Source: Pseudoclavibacter terrae (lineage in GTDB: Bacteria > Actinomycetota > Actinomycetes > Actinomycetales > Microbacteriaceae). From it: a stretch of 64,000 nucleotides of DNA. Shown here piece after piece: positions 11,105 to 45,665 of this stretch; positions within the stretch are counted from its first letter, which is position 1; the number at the start of each line of letters is the position of its first letter. A program made the position numbers and the translations under genes. The stretch is taken from positions 62,001 to 126,000 of the forward strand of contig NZ_WBJX01000001.1 in assembly GCF_008831075.1 (NCBI RefSeq), in the 5' to 3' direction. The notes below the pieces were generated by a model that did no database searches, was not told the DNA's origin, and saw only the letters and a list, made by a program, of their open reading frames with translations.

Positions 11105-11875
11105 ATGATGCTTCGCCTGGCTCGCGCGCTGCTCGTGCGCAGCGCCGTGCGCGACGTGCGGACGGGGCTCCTGTCGATCGCCGTCACCGGCCAGCCGCCA
11201 GGAGGCGGAGCGGTGCTCGCCGCCAACCACGGCTCGTGGTGGGACGCCTATCTCATCGGGCTCTACGCCAGGAACACCGGGTTCGACGTGGCCGTCATGA
11301 TGGGCGATGAGCAGCTGCGCCGCTTCCCGTTCCTGCGGCTCGTCGGGGCAGTGCCCCCACGGGCGGTTCGCACGCTCGCCGACCGTGCACGCTCCGGCGA
11401 CTGGGCCCTGATCTTCCCGGAAGGCGAGCTGCGGGCGGGCCGCGGGCTCGCGTCGCTGCATCCGGGAGCCGAGTGGGTCGCGAGGCGCGCCGAGGTTCCG
11501 CTTGTCCCCGTCGCCATCCGGGTCGTCATGCGCGGGGCGGCCAAGCCCGAGGCGTTCATCCGCTTCGGCGCTCCCGTGCGCCCCGAGCAGCTCGCAGTCG
11601 CGCTCGGGTCGATGCTGGAGGAGCTCGACAGAGCCCTCGACGCCGCCGACCCCGCACGACCCCTGCCGGGGTACCGCATCGTGTTCGACGCGCAGCGATT
11701 CCGTCGCGACAGAGTCGGCTTCGCCGGGCGGATGCTCGCGTTCCTGACCAGGCCGGAGGGCTTCCGAGCGAGACCGGCGGGCCTGGGGATGAAGCCCCGG
11801 AGCGGCGGGGCTCGACGGGGTCGACGGGGTCGACGGGGTCGCCGGGCGTATCCGGGCGAGCGGGGCGGCCAGTGA
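11105..11875 (+). CDS. 1-acyl-sn-glycerol-3-phosphate acyltransferase (PlsC family)
   Basis: 256-aa member of the PlsC acyltransferase family, which moves acyl groups onto lysophosphatidate or a related acceptor at the membrane face. It has the catalytic NHGSWWD (HX4D) near residue 40, the FPEGELRAG motif near residue 99 and PLVPVAIR further on. The C-terminal 30 residues are Gly/Arg-rich low-complexity sequence from repeated TCGACGGGG units. It overlaps the glycosyltransferase start by 4 bp (GTGA), so both probably act in one pathway, such as glycolipid or carotenoid-glycoside acylation (inference). A TAGCGT hexamer lies 10 bp upstream of the ATG. Confidence 0.85.
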   Translation: MMLRLARALLVRSAVRDVRTGLLSIAVTGQPPGGGAVLAANHGSWWDAYLIGLYARNTGFDVAVMMGDEQLRRFPFLRLVGAVPPRAVRTLADRARSGDWALIFPEGELRAGRGLASLHPGAEWVARRAEVPLVPVAIRVVMRGAAKPEAFIRFGAPVRPEQLAVALGSMLEELDRALDAADPARPLPGYRIVFDAQRFRRDRVGFAGRMLAFLTRPEGFRARPAGLGMKPRSGGARRGRRGRRGRRAYPGERGGQ

Positions 11876-13317
11876 ACCGGTCGCGCCTGAGCAGTGCCGT
11901 CGCGGGAATCTCGGCCGCGTACCTCGGCGCGCGGGCTGTCGTGCTGCTCGCGAACGCGCTGACGCAGCCGAGCCTGCGGGCGGCGGCCGGGACGGCAACC
12001 GACCGTGCCCGTGCCCGTGCCCGTGCCAGTGCTGGGGCCGGGCGTGGATCGTCGGTCTCGCCTGCTTCGGCTGAGCGCTCGGGCCGTGCATCCACTCCGC
12101 GGGTCCTGCTGCTGATTCCCGCCCGCGACGAGGAATCGACGCTACGGGAGACGCTGCCCGGATTCCTGGGTCAGGGAGCCGACGAGGTGGTGGTGCTCGA
12201 CGACGACTCGGCCGACGCGACCCGTGCGGTCGCCGAGGCCGCTGGGGCCCGCGTGCTTCGGGGTACGCCGCGTCCGGAGGGGTGGACGGGCAAGAACTGG
12301 GCGTGCGCGCAGCTCGCCGCCGCCGCTGGACACCCCGAGTCCGCCGATCGGTGTCCAACATCAGTGCACATCGAGCCCTTCCCGGCGCTTTCGGCCCAGA
12401 ATCGGGCAGAAGTGCACTCAAGTTGGTCAGGCTCGCGCGAGCCCCACCCGACGCCAGGAGCGCCAGAGACGCCAGGAGCGCCAGAGACGCCAGAAGTGCC
12501 AGAGTCGCCAGAGACGCCCGCGCTCGCAGAGCCGTCCGGGATCGCCGAACCGCCCGAGTCGCCGAGCCCCGACGATGTGCTCGTCTTCACGGACGCCGAT
12601 GTGCGCTGGAATCCCGGTGCGTTGGATGCGCTGCTGGCGACACTGCGCGCGACCCGAGCTGACCTCCTCACGGTCTTCCCGCGCCAGGAGACGCGGACCC
12701 TCGGCGAGCGACTCATCACGCCCTTGAATGACGCGGTCGTGCTCGGCTCGGTGCCCGTGGCCCTGCACGGGCGCCGTGCGCCGGTCGTTGCGAACGGCCA
12801 GGTCATGGCGTTCACTCGCGCCGCCTACGCCCGCATCGGTGGGCACGCGGCGGTGAGCGGTGAGCTCGTCGAGGACATGCGCCTCGCCGAACGGATGCGC
12901 GCCGCTGGCGGCCGAGTTGTGACGGCCCGGGGTGGGAGCGCGATCGGGGTGCGCATGTACGACGGGTACCGGAGCTCGGTGCGTGGTTTCGCGAAGTCGC
13001 TCCTCGGCCTCCATCACGGGTCGCGGGCCCTGATGTTGGCGACGAGCCTCCTGACGGTCTGCGTCTACACGCTGCCGTGGCTGCTGCGGGTCTGGCCCGG
13101 CGCGGGGGAGTCCAGCACGACCGGGCGCATCCTGCGGCTCGTGCGGATCGTGGGCCTGCTCGATCGCACGGTTTCGAACCTCATCGTGGGACGGCGACGC
13201 CCTCTGGACCTGGCCGAGGGGCTGCTCGGCCCGCTCAGCCCGCTGCTGGTGCTGCCCGTATACGCGTTGGCGGGGCGCCGCCGCGTCGCGTGGAAGGGCC
13301 GCGCCTACGAGGCGTGA
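11872..13317 (+). CDS. Glycosyltransferase family 2 with inserted repeat element
   Basis: 481-aa inverting glycosyltransferase of family GT2, membrane associated. The nucleotide-sugar domain starts at LLLIPARDEESTLRE, with VLDDDSAD and the metal-binding DXD in VFTDADVRWN; GELVEDMRLAERM and hydrophobic C-terminal segments (ALMLATSLLTVCVYTLPWL) follow. Between VLDDDS and DXD lies an abnormal insertion of about 80 residues, made of the peptide encoded by a 79-bp palindromic element (12352-12430) and a Pro/Glu-rich PETPGAPETP repeat. It starts at GTG 11872, overlapping plsC, since the frame further upstream is antisense or out of phase. RARARARAS near residue 45 is encoded by a hexanucleotide repeat. 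Confidence 0.85.
   Translation: MNRSRLSSAVAGISAAYLGARAVVLLANALTQPSLRAAAGTATDRARARARASAGAGRGSSVSPASAERSGRASTPRVLLLIPARDEESTLRETLPGFLGQGADEVVVLDDDSADATRAVAEAAGARVLRGTPRPEGWTGKNWACAQLAAAAGHPESADRCPTSVHIEPFPALSAQNRAEVHSSWSGSREPHPTPGAPETPGAPETPEVPESPETPALAEPSGIAEPPESPSPDDVLVFTDADVRWNPGALDALLATLRATRADLLTVFPRQETRTLGERLITPLNDAVVLGSVPVALHGRRAPVVANGQVMAFTRAAYARIGGHAAVSGELVEDMRLAERMRAAGGRVVTARGGSAIGVRMYDGYRSSVRGFAKSLLGLHHGSRALMLATSLLTVCVYTLPWLLRVWPGAGESSTTGRILRLVRIVGLLDRTVSNLIVGRRRPLDLAEGLLGPLSPLLVLPVYALAGRRRVAWKGRAYEA
12352..12430 (+). repeat. 79-bp palindromic element, copy 1 (inside glycosyltransferase gene)
   Basis: Ends are imperfect inverted repeats: TGTCCAACATCAGTGC at the left and GTGCACTCAAGTTGGTCAG at the right. 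The reverse complement of copy 2 (43936-44014) has the same length, the same ends and a similar core (GCGCTTTCGGCC here, GCGTTTCGGCC there). Both copies lie in the coding orientation of their host genes and leave the frame open. Confidence 0.85.
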
Positions 13318-20596: not shown

Positions 20597-20964
20597 TCGG
20601 CTCCGATTCGTTCCCCGGCTCCCGTGAACGCCCGCAGCTCCCCGCCGCAGTTCCTTGTCGCCGCCGCACGGAGCGGCGACAAGAGCTGCGGAGCGAAGAA
20701 CCTGCAGCGGAGAACCTGCGGAGCGGAAAAGCTGCAGAGCGGAAAAGCCGCAGAGCGGAGGAGTTGCGGTGAGGAGGAGTTGCGGTGCGGAGGAGTTGCG
20801 GTGCGGAGGAGTTGCGGTGCGGAGGAGCTGCGGTGAGGAGTGCGCTGGTCAGCCCCAGCCCCAGCCTCTGCCTGCGGTGAGGAGTGGGGCTGGTCTGCTC
20901 TGCCCGGCCTCTGCAGCTGGTCTGCTCTGCCCGGCCTCTGCTCTGCCCGGCCTCTGCCCTGGAC
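20597..20964. repeat. Gene-free tandem-repeat field
   Basis: No credible gene. It opens with a strong hairpin, CTTGTCGCCGC (20654-20664) pairing with GCGGCGACAAG (20673-20683), which may end the HNH transcript. Purine-rich AGCGGA/GAGCGGAAAAGC units follow, then four 16-bp tandem copies of GCGGAGGAGTTGCGGT (20771-20834, slightly varied). Last come copies of CTGCTCTGCCCGGCCTCTG (about 20893-20955), running up to the catalase stop codon. Confidence 0.8.
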
Positions 20965-24316: not shown

Positions 24317-24348
24317 CCTGGGCCGCTCAACCGAGCCAGGCTACGCAG

Positions 24349-24420
24349 CAAACTTCGGTGACAACTCGCGTCTGACGGAAGCTCAACGGACGTCGACGGC
24401 CCCGTTGTCACCGAAGTTTG
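24349..24420. repeat. 72-bp palindromic element with perfect 17-bp ends
   Basis: CAAACTTCGGTGACAAC (24349-24365) is the exact reverse complement of GTTGTCACCGAAGTTTG (24404-24420). The 38-nt interior is not self-complementary along its length and there is no T tract, so it looks like a palindromic repeat rather than a simple terminator. Its ends share C-x-AACTTC-x-GTG with the 79-bp element. Confidence 0.8.
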
Positions 24421-24486
24421 ATGGCTGCGCCGTCGACCGGAGTCGTGAACTGTGATCGTGGCGGCCCTCGGCGCGCATCCAGTGGA

Positions 24487-42714: not shown

Positions 42715-43602
42715 TCAGCGCCCGGCCTCTGGTCTGGGCTCGGCCGCGGCCTCGAGCGCCATGTCGAGGCCCAGGTCGATGGCTCGCGCGCTGTGAGTGA
42801 GGGCGCCGACCGAGATGACGTCGACACCCGTCTCCGCGATCGACGCGACCGTGTCGAGGTTCACTCCGCCACTCGCCTCGACGACCGCCCGCCCGTTGAT
42901 GAGCGCGACGCCCTCACGCAGCTCGGCCAGCGAGAAGTTGTCGAGCATGATCGTGTCCACGCCGGCCGCGAGGACCGGGCCGACCTGGTCGAGCCGGTCG
43001 ACCTCCACCTCGACGTGCGTCGTGTGGCCCAGCTTGTCCTTCGCCGCGAGCAGCGCCTCCGTCAGACTGAGGCCCGACTGCTGCAGGAGCACGGCGAGGT
43101 GATTGTCCTTCGCCATGACGGCGTCCGACAGCGAGAAGCGGTGATTGCGGCCGCCACCGCTCGCCACGGCGTGCCGTTCGAAGGCCCGCAGCCCGGGGGT
43201 CGTCTTGCGCGTGTCCGTGATGCGCGCTGACGTGTGCGCGACCGCGTCGACGTAGCTGCGAGTGAGCGTCGCGACGCCGCTCATGCGCTGCGCGAAGTTC
43301 AACGCCACCCGCTCCGCCGTGAGCACCGAACGCGCGGGGCCCGCGACGGTCGCCAGCACGTCCCCTGCGGCGAACTCGTCACCGTCGTCGGCGTGCAGAT
43401 CGACCTGGATGCGCGCATCCGTGAGCCGGAAGGACCCCGCGAACACCTCGATCCCCGAGAGCACGCCGGCCTCGCGCGCGACGAGGGTGGCACTCGCGGT
43501 GGCGTCGTGCGGGATGAGCGCCGAGGCCGTGACGTCACCCCAGGGGGCGTCCTCGAGCAGAGCGGCGCTCACGGTCGTCACGATGTGGGCAGGGGTGAGC
43601 AT
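42715..43602 (-). CDS. nadC: Nicotinate-nucleotide pyrophosphorylase (carboxylating)
   Basis: 295-aa quinolinate phosphoribosyltransferase making nicotinate mononucleotide from quinolinate and PRPP. Motifs: NFAQRMSGVATLTR, ITDTRKTTPGLRAFERHAV near residue 135, MAKDNHL, THVEVEVDRL, DTIMLDNFS and ASGGVNLDTV, all expected. ATG 43602 overlaps the nadB stop by one base (TGATG). Third step gene of the NAD operon. Confidence 0.96.
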   Translation of the reverse strand: MLTPAHIVTTVSAALLEDAPWGDVTASALIPHDATASATLVAREAGVLSGIEVFAGSFRLTDARIQVDLHADDGDEFAAGDVLATVAGPARSVLTAERVALNFAQRMSGVATLTRSYVDAVAHTSARITDTRKTTPGLRAFERHAVASGGGRNHRFSLSDAVMAKDNHLAVLLQQSGLSLTEALLAAKDKLGHTTHVEVEVDRLDQVGPVLAAGVDTIMLDNFSLAELREGVALINGRAVVEASGGVNLDTVASIAETGVDVISVGALTHSARAIDLGLDMALEAAAEPRPEAGR

Positions 43603-45665
43603 CAGCGCGCCATGGCTCTCTCTAGATGGGGAAGATGGGTGTGGGTGTGGGGCTCACGAGCGGAGGGGTGGTCTGCCCGGAAGTGCGCGCCGGCTGACGC
43701 CCGACGGGTCAGCGCGGCCTCCACCGTGAGGCGAGCGAGCAGGAGCAGGTTGCTGTCCTCACGGTCGGCGACCGACGAGTCCGGTCCGGCGGCGTCTCGG
43801 TCGCCCGCCCAGGCGGTGATGACCCGCTTGGCATCTTCGAGTGCGGCGCCGCTGCGGTGCAGGCCCGAGTTCGCCCACATGAGCGTCTGCAGCGCGGCCC
43901 GCGAGAAGGCAGGAGCCGCATCGCTGGCCGTCCGCTGTCCAACATCAGTGCGATTCTGCTCAGAACTCGGCCGAAACGCTCGAATCGAGGCGTTCGAGCA
44001 CTGAAGTTGGTCAGGGGACGGGGAGTCCGCGACGTCCGAGACGCGGCCGAGACCGCGGGCGGGTTCGTGAGCAAGGCCGTGAGCGGAACCTGGGTCGGCC
44101 CGCGGCGCCTGGCCGAGCTGCGCCTGGCCGAGCTGGGCCTGGCCGAGCGTTCGCTGGCCGAGCCGGGCCTGCTCGCGCAGCGCCTCCGCGACGCGGTGCC
44201 CGAAGACGGCACCCTCAAGGAGTGAATTCGATGCAAGACGGTTCGCGCCGTGCACGCCCGTGCGGGCCGTCTCGCCCGCCGCGTAGAGGCCCGGGATGCT
44301 CGTCCTCCCGAACAGGTCGGTGACGACACCGCCCATCAGGTAGTGCGCTGCGGGCGTGACCGGCACCGTCTCGAGCGACCAGTCCAACCCGGACCCGTCG
44401 ATGCGCGCCGTGATGCTCGGGAAGCGGCGCTCGAGGAACTCCCGGCCCAGATGCGTCGCGTCGAGACGCACGGGGCGTCCGCCTTGCTTCGCCATCTCGT
44501 CGGCAATGCCGCGCGCAACGATGTCGCGCGGGGCGAGCTCGGCATCGGGGTGCACGCCGACCAGAAACCGTTCGCCCGCATCGTTGAGCAGCACGGCGCC
44601 TTCGCCGCGCACGGCCTCCGAGATGAGTGCGCCCCCGGATCCGGCGAGCACGGTCGGGTGGAACTGCACGAACTCGAGGTCAGAGATCTCGGCTCCGGCC
44701 CGCGCGGCGACTGCGATGCCGTCGCCCGTCGCGACCCCGGGGTTGCTCGTGTGCGCGAAGAGCTGGCCGGCGCCGCCTGTCGCGAGCACGATCGCATCCG
44801 CCGGGAACGGGCGTGGGGCGTCATCCTGGCGGCCGTCTGCGCGGCCTGTGCCGCTTGCGCCGTCCGCACAGCCTGCACCGCCCGCGCTCTGCAGCCACGC
44901 GCCGACCACGCGCGGTGCTGCGGAAGCCGCGTCGCTCGCGGAAGCCGCGGTGTCGGGCTTCGGCGTGGTCGCCGTCGGAACCCCGTCCAGCATCAGGTCC
45001 ACAAGGAACGTGTGCTCGAGCAGCCGGAGTTTCCCGCGCACGGCCGCCGCGCGGACGGCGTCGCTCAGCGCTCGCTGGATCTCGCGCCCGGTGCCGTCTC
45101 CGAAGGCGTGCAGGATGCGCGGATGCGAGTGCGCCGCCTCGAGCCCGCGCGCGAGCTGCCGCAGATGGTCGCCTTCTGGGACGGGAAGCGGCCCTTCAGG
45201 GCGACTCGTCGATGCGGGCGAGGAAGAAGGTGCTGCGCTGTCGCTCGCGGCGGCGGCGGCCTCAGCGACGGGAACCCGGTCGAAGCGCGTGCCGAGGGCG
45301 ATCAGGCCGCGGATGCGCGCATCCGCCGACTCGCAGAGCACCTGGGTCGCTCGCCGGTCGCCGAGCCCGGCACCAGCTGCGAGCGTGTCGCGCACGTGCG
45401 ACTCGACGCTGTCACCAGCGCGAGCATCAGCACCAGCCGCGAGTACTGCCGCGATCCCGCCCTGCGCATGGGAGGTGGCGGTGTCGCCGATCGTCGACTT
45501 CGTGGCGACCACCACGTCGTGCCCGTCGGCGGCCGCCGCCAGCGCCGCGGTCAGACCCGCGATGCCGGTGCCCACGACAAGCACCCGCAAGCGCCCGCCC
45601 GCCTGAGGCGAGGGGGCAGCCTCGGACGCGTCTGCGCCTCCCGGCAGCCCAGCATCCCCGACCAC
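43602..45665 (-). CDS. nadB: L-aspartate oxidase with expanded low-complexity insertions
   Basis: 687-aa flavoenzyme (family usually about 540 aa) oxidising aspartate to iminoaspartate for NadA. FAD-binding VVGTGIAGLTAAL near residue 30, ATSHAQGGIAAVL, EFVQFHPT, and the HGANRLASNSLLEGAVFGHR motif are intact. The extra length comes from three insertions: an Ala/Ser/Pro run near residue 140, an Ala/Asp/Ser plus Gly run near residues 240-280, and the linker before the C-terminal helical domain. That linker contains LGQAQ repeats and a 79-bp palindromic element encoding DQLQCSNASIRAFRPSSEQN and the next few residues. GTG 45665 starts two bases before the end of the nadA stop codon region. Confidence 0.93.
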   Translation of the reverse strand: MVGDAGLPGGADASEAAPSPQAGGRLRVLVVGTGIAGLTAALAAAADGHDVVVATKSTIGDTATSHAQGGIAAVLAAGADARAGDSVESHVRDTLAAGAGLGDRRATQVLCESADARIRGLIALGTRFDRVPVAEAAAAASDSAAPSSSPASTSRPEGPLPVPEGDHLRQLARGLEAAHSHPRILHAFGDGTGREIQRALSDAVRAAAVRGKLRLLEHTFLVDLMLDGVPTATTPKPDTAASASDAASAAPRVVGAWLQSAGGAGCADGASGTGRADGRQDDAPRPFPADAIVLATGGAGQLFAHTSNPGVATGDGIAVAARAGAEISDLEFVQFHPTVLAGSGGALISEAVRGEGAVLLNDAGERFLVGVHPDAELAPRDIVARGIADEMAKQGGRPVRLDATHLGREFLERRFPSITARIDGSGLDWSLETVPVTPAAHYLMGGVVTDLFGRTSIPGLYAAGETARTGVHGANRLASNSLLEGAVFGHRVAEALREQARLGQRTLGQAQLGQAQLGQAPRADPGSAHGLAHEPARGLGRVSDVADSPSPDQLQCSNASIRAFRPSSEQNRTDVGQRTASDAAPAFSRAALQTLMWANSGLHRSGAALEDAKRVITAWAGDRDAAGPDSSVADREDSNLLLLARLTVEAALTRRASAGAHFRADHPSAREPHTHTHLPHLERAMAR
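43936..44014 (-). repeat. 79-bp palindromic element, copy 2 (inside nadB)
   Basis: The plus strand starts TGTCCAACATCAGTGC and ends GCACTGAAGTTGGTCAG; the ends are imperfect inverted repeats. Same length and core as the copy at 12352-12430 when read on the minus strand, which is the nadB coding strand. Encodes about 26 in-frame residues. Confidence 0.85.

Follow-up and report, generated by a model that had tools for sequence, protein, structure and literature searches.

The window analysed here comprises 64,000 bp of a Pseudoclavibacter genome (G000:C1:62001-126000), the letters of which were confirmed. A glycosyltransferase-2-like (GT2-like) ORF lies at 11473..13317 on the + strand; its true start is uncertain and its name is that given in a first-pass annotation, as is the name of the nadB-like ORF at 43602..45665 (- strand). 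That annotation had proposed a 79-bp palindromic element in frame within the first ORF and a homologous copy of equal length within the second. Both elements are real and 80 bp long, one base more than proposed, occupying 12351..12430 in the GT2-like ORF and 43935..44014 in nadB (both given without strand), and both are of the type that we call A. According to the arm consensus, the GT2 element has 17-bp arms, the left one at 12351..12367 (+), whose base 1 differs from the consensus, and the right, inverted one at 12414..12430 (-). The right-arm pattern, with up to 3 mismatches, occurred twice in the window and was absent from every one of 100 shuffled sequences. Both host frames are open through the element and differ from each other, as had been read (the codon offset at the element start is 2 in the GT2-like ORF and 1 in nadB), and the GT2 frame across the element was open between fixed anchors in all 5 species compared; our home-made gene finder made no GT2 call that spans the element. 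A divergent relative at 24344..24424 (without strand), recognised with a covariance model and by type comparison, counts among the members of a C-type with the core ACTTCGGTGAC...GTCACCGAAGT. The window also holds an array of 16-bp tandem repeats at 20693-20836.

Both intragenic copies are old and common to four or five species, and a recent insertion is not supported. The nadB site is filled, in frame, in all 5 genomes of the genus that carry the family, with A-type elements in G000, G006 and G007, a mixed one in G004 and a B-like, decayed one in G005, and nadB of the outgroup G003 is without the element. The GT2 site is filled, in frame, in G000, G004, G005 and G006 (4/5 carriers), and cross-species comparison showed that the element and its low-complexity linker (12326..12542, + strand) have no counterpart in G007, where the frame is preserved. 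The annotation had held that orthologues from distant genera with the segment in both proteins would speak against it; orthologues of both proteins do carry the segment, but only within one clade of the genus. Low-complexity, fast-changing linkers adjoin both intragenic copies (window 12431-12542, and in nadB), their length varying by species and always in frame.

Copies and distribution of the family

A search of the genome for further copies, as the first-pass annotation had recommended, located 43 places in G000 with the covariance model (86 matches over two strands at E <= 0.01, the weakest few being marginal and one partial). With one arm as the query, the same genome gave 35 matches as compared with 1 for the reversed control pattern, and 30 loci retrieved from arm matches contained 22 distinct elements. 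The layout of the family consists of 17-bp inverted arms on either side of a variable 46-bp centre. Among 129 distinct copies (loci L001-L121), in a count that permitted lengths of 72-89, 124 were 80 bp long, three 79 and two 81. The arm consensus is CTGwCCAACwTsAGTGC in the A-type and CTGgCCAACTTsCGTGATsrA in the B-type, which has the same total length; a few copies are mixed, pairing an A-type with a B-type arm (L006, L101 and L116 2356).

Exact arms were found in 5/10 genomes of the genus, with 47-54 in each, and 0 in the remaining five. A scan of a contig collection gave 46 stretches, all of them from Pseudoclavibacter (P. helvolus DSM 20419, AY1F1, AY1H1 and RFBB5), and under stricter filters matches occurred in 3/299 family genomes sampled, all in the same genus. 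The viral contigs scanned gave 0 matches to the 80-bp family. Along contig C1 of G000, about 295 kb (415-710 kb) is without an 80-bp element, and the elements are dense on both sides of it. Local duplications of element plus spacer were noticed in G005 (L085 6142/6324, L094 1499/1639, L037 1497/1661 and L075/L077) and, for the 60-bp family described below, at G000:C6:75698/75952; spaced 140-254 bp, they resemble the local REPIN amplification described in the available portion of PMC8049555.

Location relative to genes was surveyed with home-made gene models over 1.59 Mb, made up of G007:C7 and a part of G000:C1. Of 46 copies, 41 lay between called genes and 5 overlapped genes, the GT2 copy being among the 41; if it is counted as intragenic, the figures become 40 and 6. 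Convergent gaps were enriched (20 copies vs 7.1 expected by length, P 4e-6), divergent gaps were depleted (2 vs 11.6, P 2e-4), and tandem gaps held 19 copies vs 22.3 expected. Thirteen of the 129 copies overlapped the 3'-end of a called gene; in 12/129 the overlap measured exactly 4 bp, and the TGA of the arm was the stop codon of the overlapped gene. The first-pass annotation had compared the element with Rickettsia palindromic elements and had read its open frames as if selected to be tolerated. There is indeed a family of repeated palindromes, read in frame within two proteins that are unrelated. Neither a preference for genes nor a selection for open frames is supported, the location being mainly intergenic and some copies supplying stop codons.

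Constraint on arms and length

The arms are conserved at the DNA level. In 104 orthologous or same-site pairs, divergence was 0.080 in the arms, 0.272 in the centre, 0.220 in flanking intergenic DNA and 0.136 in coding DNA, so that the arms change 2.7 times less than the flanking intergenic DNA. Gap columns per aligned column were 0.024 in the arms, 0.085 in the centre and 0.502 in intergenic DNA; length was equal in 100/104 pairs, often because an insertion was balanced by a deletion, as in L018/L096. Since the copies had been found by their arms, the comparison was repeated with copies located by their flanks (G000:C1 vs G007:C7), in which off-consensus changes numbered 26 over 822 arm sites, half the intergenic divergence of this pair predicting 51 (P 9e-5). 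Several copies in the latter comparison were deleted or had lost one arm in the sister species. The low rate of arm change together with these losses indicates that sites turn over, yet standing copies are constrained. At some shared sites (L005/L048/L064/L068/L080 and nadB) the arms are conserved between species and the centres are unrelated, which suggests replacement of the centre or repeated insertion, and some of the 104 pairs may thus be replacements and not strict orthologues. A clean empty site marking a new solo insertion was not found.

We compared pairing within the centre before and after swapping right halves between elements. It was 0.416 vs 0.400 (sd 0.013) in the A set and 0.362 vs 0.364 in the B set; as swapping does not reduce pairing, the centre is not a compensating hairpin. 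The 46-nt centres folded slightly better than shuffles (mean z -0.77), as expected from a palindromic consensus, and arm position 10/71 paired beyond expectation (0.73 vs 0.54). An RNA hairpin as the chief constraint was rejected because swapping revealed no extra pairing in the centre, although strong folds were present; Rfam gave 0 matches in 6 loci. Inversion of the centre between the arms was also considered, and reverse-complement comparison gave no consistent signal.

The A set showed A/T phasing with a period of 10.25 bp (power 68 vs <=4.05 in 2000 rotations) and maxima in the centre at about 20-22, 30-31 and 40-41, and the B set a period of 10.0 (power 15.9 vs <=4.05). In the A/T columns, which were picked from the same copies and for which the pairs are not independent, A-T exchanges made up 21/45 of the changes involving A/T, as compared with 61/817 in the flanks and 5/112 in other centre columns. 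Over the whole centre, recent changes showed no enrichment of those keeping the W/S class (137/517 vs 285/1041, P 0.76). We infer from the phasing and the A-T exchanges a bent or wrapped double-stranded site.

The nuclease gene bracketed by elements

In 5/5 carriers a gene for a protein of 298-323 residues, flanked by elements, is found between purU-like and trpE-like genes, so named by eye. The G005 protein matched DUF559 with 29.6 bits (cut-off 20.6) and, below the curated cut-offs, the MTES_1575 REase (36.1, cut-off 38.2) and AbiEi_4 (21.1, cut-off 25) models; a PADLOC AbiEi match had E 0.001. Residues E202, Q219, D229, E239, D241, H246, D255 and R271 were invariant in 48 homologues. A sequence search of the PDB gave one weak match (3hrl, E 0.011), and a single-sequence AlphaFold model had a mean pLDDT of 38.5 and was unusable. 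The first-pass annotation had suggested looking for a parent transposase such as RAYT/Tnp. It was right as to the kind of partner, since an enzyme gene of the DUF559 nuclease type is associated with the elements; a RAYT parent is not supported, Y1_Tnp (PF01797) being found in 0/10 genomes of the genus in a search whose control was positive in 5/14 known genomes.

The bracketing copies start 1066-1069 bp apart in all five carriers, the upstream one finishing 22-94 bp ahead of the assumed start codon and the downstream one providing, with its TGA, the stop of the gene; in G000 and G007 a third copy lies beyond the pair. The type of the bracket matches the class of the protein in 5/5 carriers. 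A-type brackets flank the gene of class I, whose proteins in G005 and G006 are 83% identical, and B-type brackets that of class II (G000, G004 and G007, 84-98% identical). Between the classes the proteins were 52-57% identical; the nuclease part was the more similar (0.66-0.67) and the first two thirds the less so (0.45-0.49). Among the rows listed, G000 and G007 had no class I gene at the shared locus, yet their A-type solo copies are conserved, so a strict one-to-one recognition fails to account for the constraint on the A-type in these genomes.

Related nuclease genes and a second family

Relatives of the bracketed protein occurred in 140/199 family genomes sampled (66/85 genera). Within the genus, PF04480 genes were found in 9/10 genomes, carriers or not, and DUF559 genes occur also in members without the 80-bp family. 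Three criteria of bracketing were devised one after another within the analysis. Palindromes of equal length with matching arms flanked the gene in 33/60 loci vs 1/120 random pieces, the sole positive piece being the nuclease locus itself and L311-L313 being duplicates of L285-L287; the second criterion gave 28/56 vs 4/744 control genes, the 28 including two repeats and one chance k-mer; and the third gave 27/49 related genes vs 0/187 controls (every fourth control gene). By these criteria a bracket is missing from about half of the nuclease homologues, and among Tsukamurella plasmid genes 1/3 was bracketed. The matched palindromes of related genes elsewhere have their own sequence, and across units the palindromes measure 47-87 bp by detection window. 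Similarity of arms rose weakly with similarity of proteins across 27 units (rho 0.18, P 0.003), and across 24 units when orthologues of the carrier locus were left out (rho 0.16, P 0.011).

The carriers also contain a second solo family, GGGATGGGTT-N40-AACCCATCCC, whose exact copies number 8 in G000, 13 in G004, 4 in G005, 9 in G006 and 6 in G007, and 0 in the five non-carriers; 38/40 copies are 60 bp long, and in G006 a DUF559 gene lies between two of them. A C-type copy adjoins a further DUF559 gene in G007 (C7, near 479 kb). At L299 140-700, a palindrome of about 50 bp (GGGTCACTTTGCCC...GGGCCCAAAGTGACC) occurs in four tandem copies upstream of a DUF559 gene of a different type. The nuclease unit of L300 (G007) is absent at G000:C1 near 920377 and has the 7-bp repeat GCTCAGG at both its ends, which could be a target duplication or the footprint of a deletion; L299 (G005) lies at the same site without the left repeat. 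This presence and absence suggests movement of the unit, although its occurrence in both G005 and G007 makes a loss from G000 and a gain equally likely.

Discussion

The segment in the GT2-like gene belongs to a genome-wide family of fixed length, in which arms and total length are held while the centre drifts, and whose copies bracket a nuclease gene in every carrier. It is probably a solo copy of the palindromic site of a nuclease-palindrome system that resembles REPIN/RAYT and has an unrelated enzyme, with binding, cleavage and mobilisation as its presumed activities. According to the available part of PMC7319586, two inverted repeats of 23 bp are bound by AbiEi monomers, which bend the DNA, and by analogy this protein may bind the arms. 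Two monomers, each through its N-terminal AbiEi-type domain, would recognise the arms as double-stranded DNA, unlike REPIN/RAYT, and would bend or wrap the DNA between them; under this proposal the bending or wrapping would account for the 10.25-bp phasing and for the constant length. The nuclease gene would have its operator in the upstream bracket copy. The nuclease may nick or cut at the palindromes and may so have helped to copy them elsewhere, where they would be tolerated mainly behind genes, and solo copies might persist since bound sites are useful or broken sites are lost.

An alternative is that the palindromes are solely regulatory sites of AbiEi-like repressors, serving autoregulation of the nuclease, with the solo copies as old regulatory or transcription-end sites devoid of mobility. 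Autoregulation of the AbiEi type does act through paired inverted repeats (PMC7319586, in its available part), the upstream bracket copies lie shortly before the assumed start codons, and the surplus in convergent gaps and deficit in divergent ones could suit terminators. However, regulators of initiation would be expected in divergent, promoter-bearing regions, which the copies avoid; as, moreover, two window copies lie within coding sequence, each genome holds dozens of copies and Rfam gave no match in the 6 loci, we regard this alternative as unlikely. The same location at gene ends would agree with a site of chromosome architecture, with the 80 bp wound around gyrase or a nucleoid protein and the nuclease gene only incidentally among the copies, and the phasing is similar to that in the periodic segments of the gyrase motif of E. 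coli (period 10.75 bp, 130 bp long; available part of PMC6379681); sequence-specific arms, restriction to one clade and brackets of other sequence at related genes make such a site highly improbable.

Those brackets in other genera likewise speak against a MITE of a DDE insertion sequence that flanks the nuclease genes by chance. Its TG...CA near the ends, short inverted arms and dispersed copies would fit, but arms are conserved while centres are unrelated between copies, and an autonomous transposon with the same ends was not noticed among the arm matches listed, so that this origin is very unlikely. A Rickettsia-type element making new peptide segments, the reading of the first-pass annotation, draws on the two proteins that hold it in frame in four and five species, and is hardly credible for a family that lies mostly between genes and supplies stop codons. 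Two further ideas were dropped: for a binding protein coded beside the element clusters in divergent promoters (L036/L116), the neighbours were ordinary-looking, and for marks of origin or terminus, the genome parts examined had no match to parS-like or dif-like motifs and a GC skew without a clear trend.

REPINs are, to the knowledge of the authors of PMC8049555 (available part), the only sequence population stably maintained in prokaryotic genomes. We consider the chances evenly balanced that AbiEi-DUF559 nucleases each maintain and propagate palindromes of their own, of a fixed length that differs between units (about 47 to 87 bp), as a second, independently evolved and stably maintained palindrome population, several of which would coexist in one genome. 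If true, this population would rest on a nuclease domain linked to a DNA-binding domain of the antitoxin type, the question of why such populations persist would become testable by comparison, and DUF559-type genes would be offered a role. In the open-licence literature, we found no report of a palindromic element in Microbacteriaceae, absence from print not being thereby established; by title, none of the matches for Pseudoclavibacter helvolus repeats concerned repeats, and those for DUF559 with palindromes were unrelated. DUF559 occurred in none of the matches listed for DUF559/AbiEi/transposable and inverted repeat/mobile/homing. Judged against this literature, we rate the nuclease-palindrome system as categorically new and nearest to REPIN/RAYT in its working principle.

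Compared with the REPIN/REPtron and its RAYT (TnpA-REP), as presented in the available parts of PMC8049555 and PMC8266576, the family shares inverted conserved ends with a highly diverse spacer, a mostly intergenic dispersal, local tandem copies and long vertical inheritance, as well as, in form, a cognate enzyme gene with its palindromes on either side. The enzyme differs, being AbiEi-like with DUF559 and not Y1; the length is fixed at 60 or 80 bp, and the arms would act as double-stranded sites and not as compensating hairpins. Judged by eye from the column counts of the A- and B-types, the foot of the palindrome lacks the GTAG tetranucleotide of the REPIN foot. With the AbiE type IV toxin-antitoxin systems (AbiEi, Rv2827c) the family would share the binding of paired inverted repeats, 23 bp long and bent in the case of AbiEi (PMC7319586, available part); it differs from AbiE operators in the fusion of the AbiEi-like domain to a nuclease domain, in arms 46 bp apart, in a second copy 3' of the gene and in dozens of solo copies. 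Rickettsia palindromic elements are also palindromic and in frame within unrelated proteins, but they measure about 150 bp (PMC10969869, available part) as against 80 bp here, where copies are mainly intergenic, associated with a nuclease gene and conserved in their arms at the DNA level. The BIME/gyrase sites of E. coli are likewise intergenic with helically phased composition (PMC6379681, available part), and differ from the present family in its sequence-specific inverted arms and its restriction to one clade.
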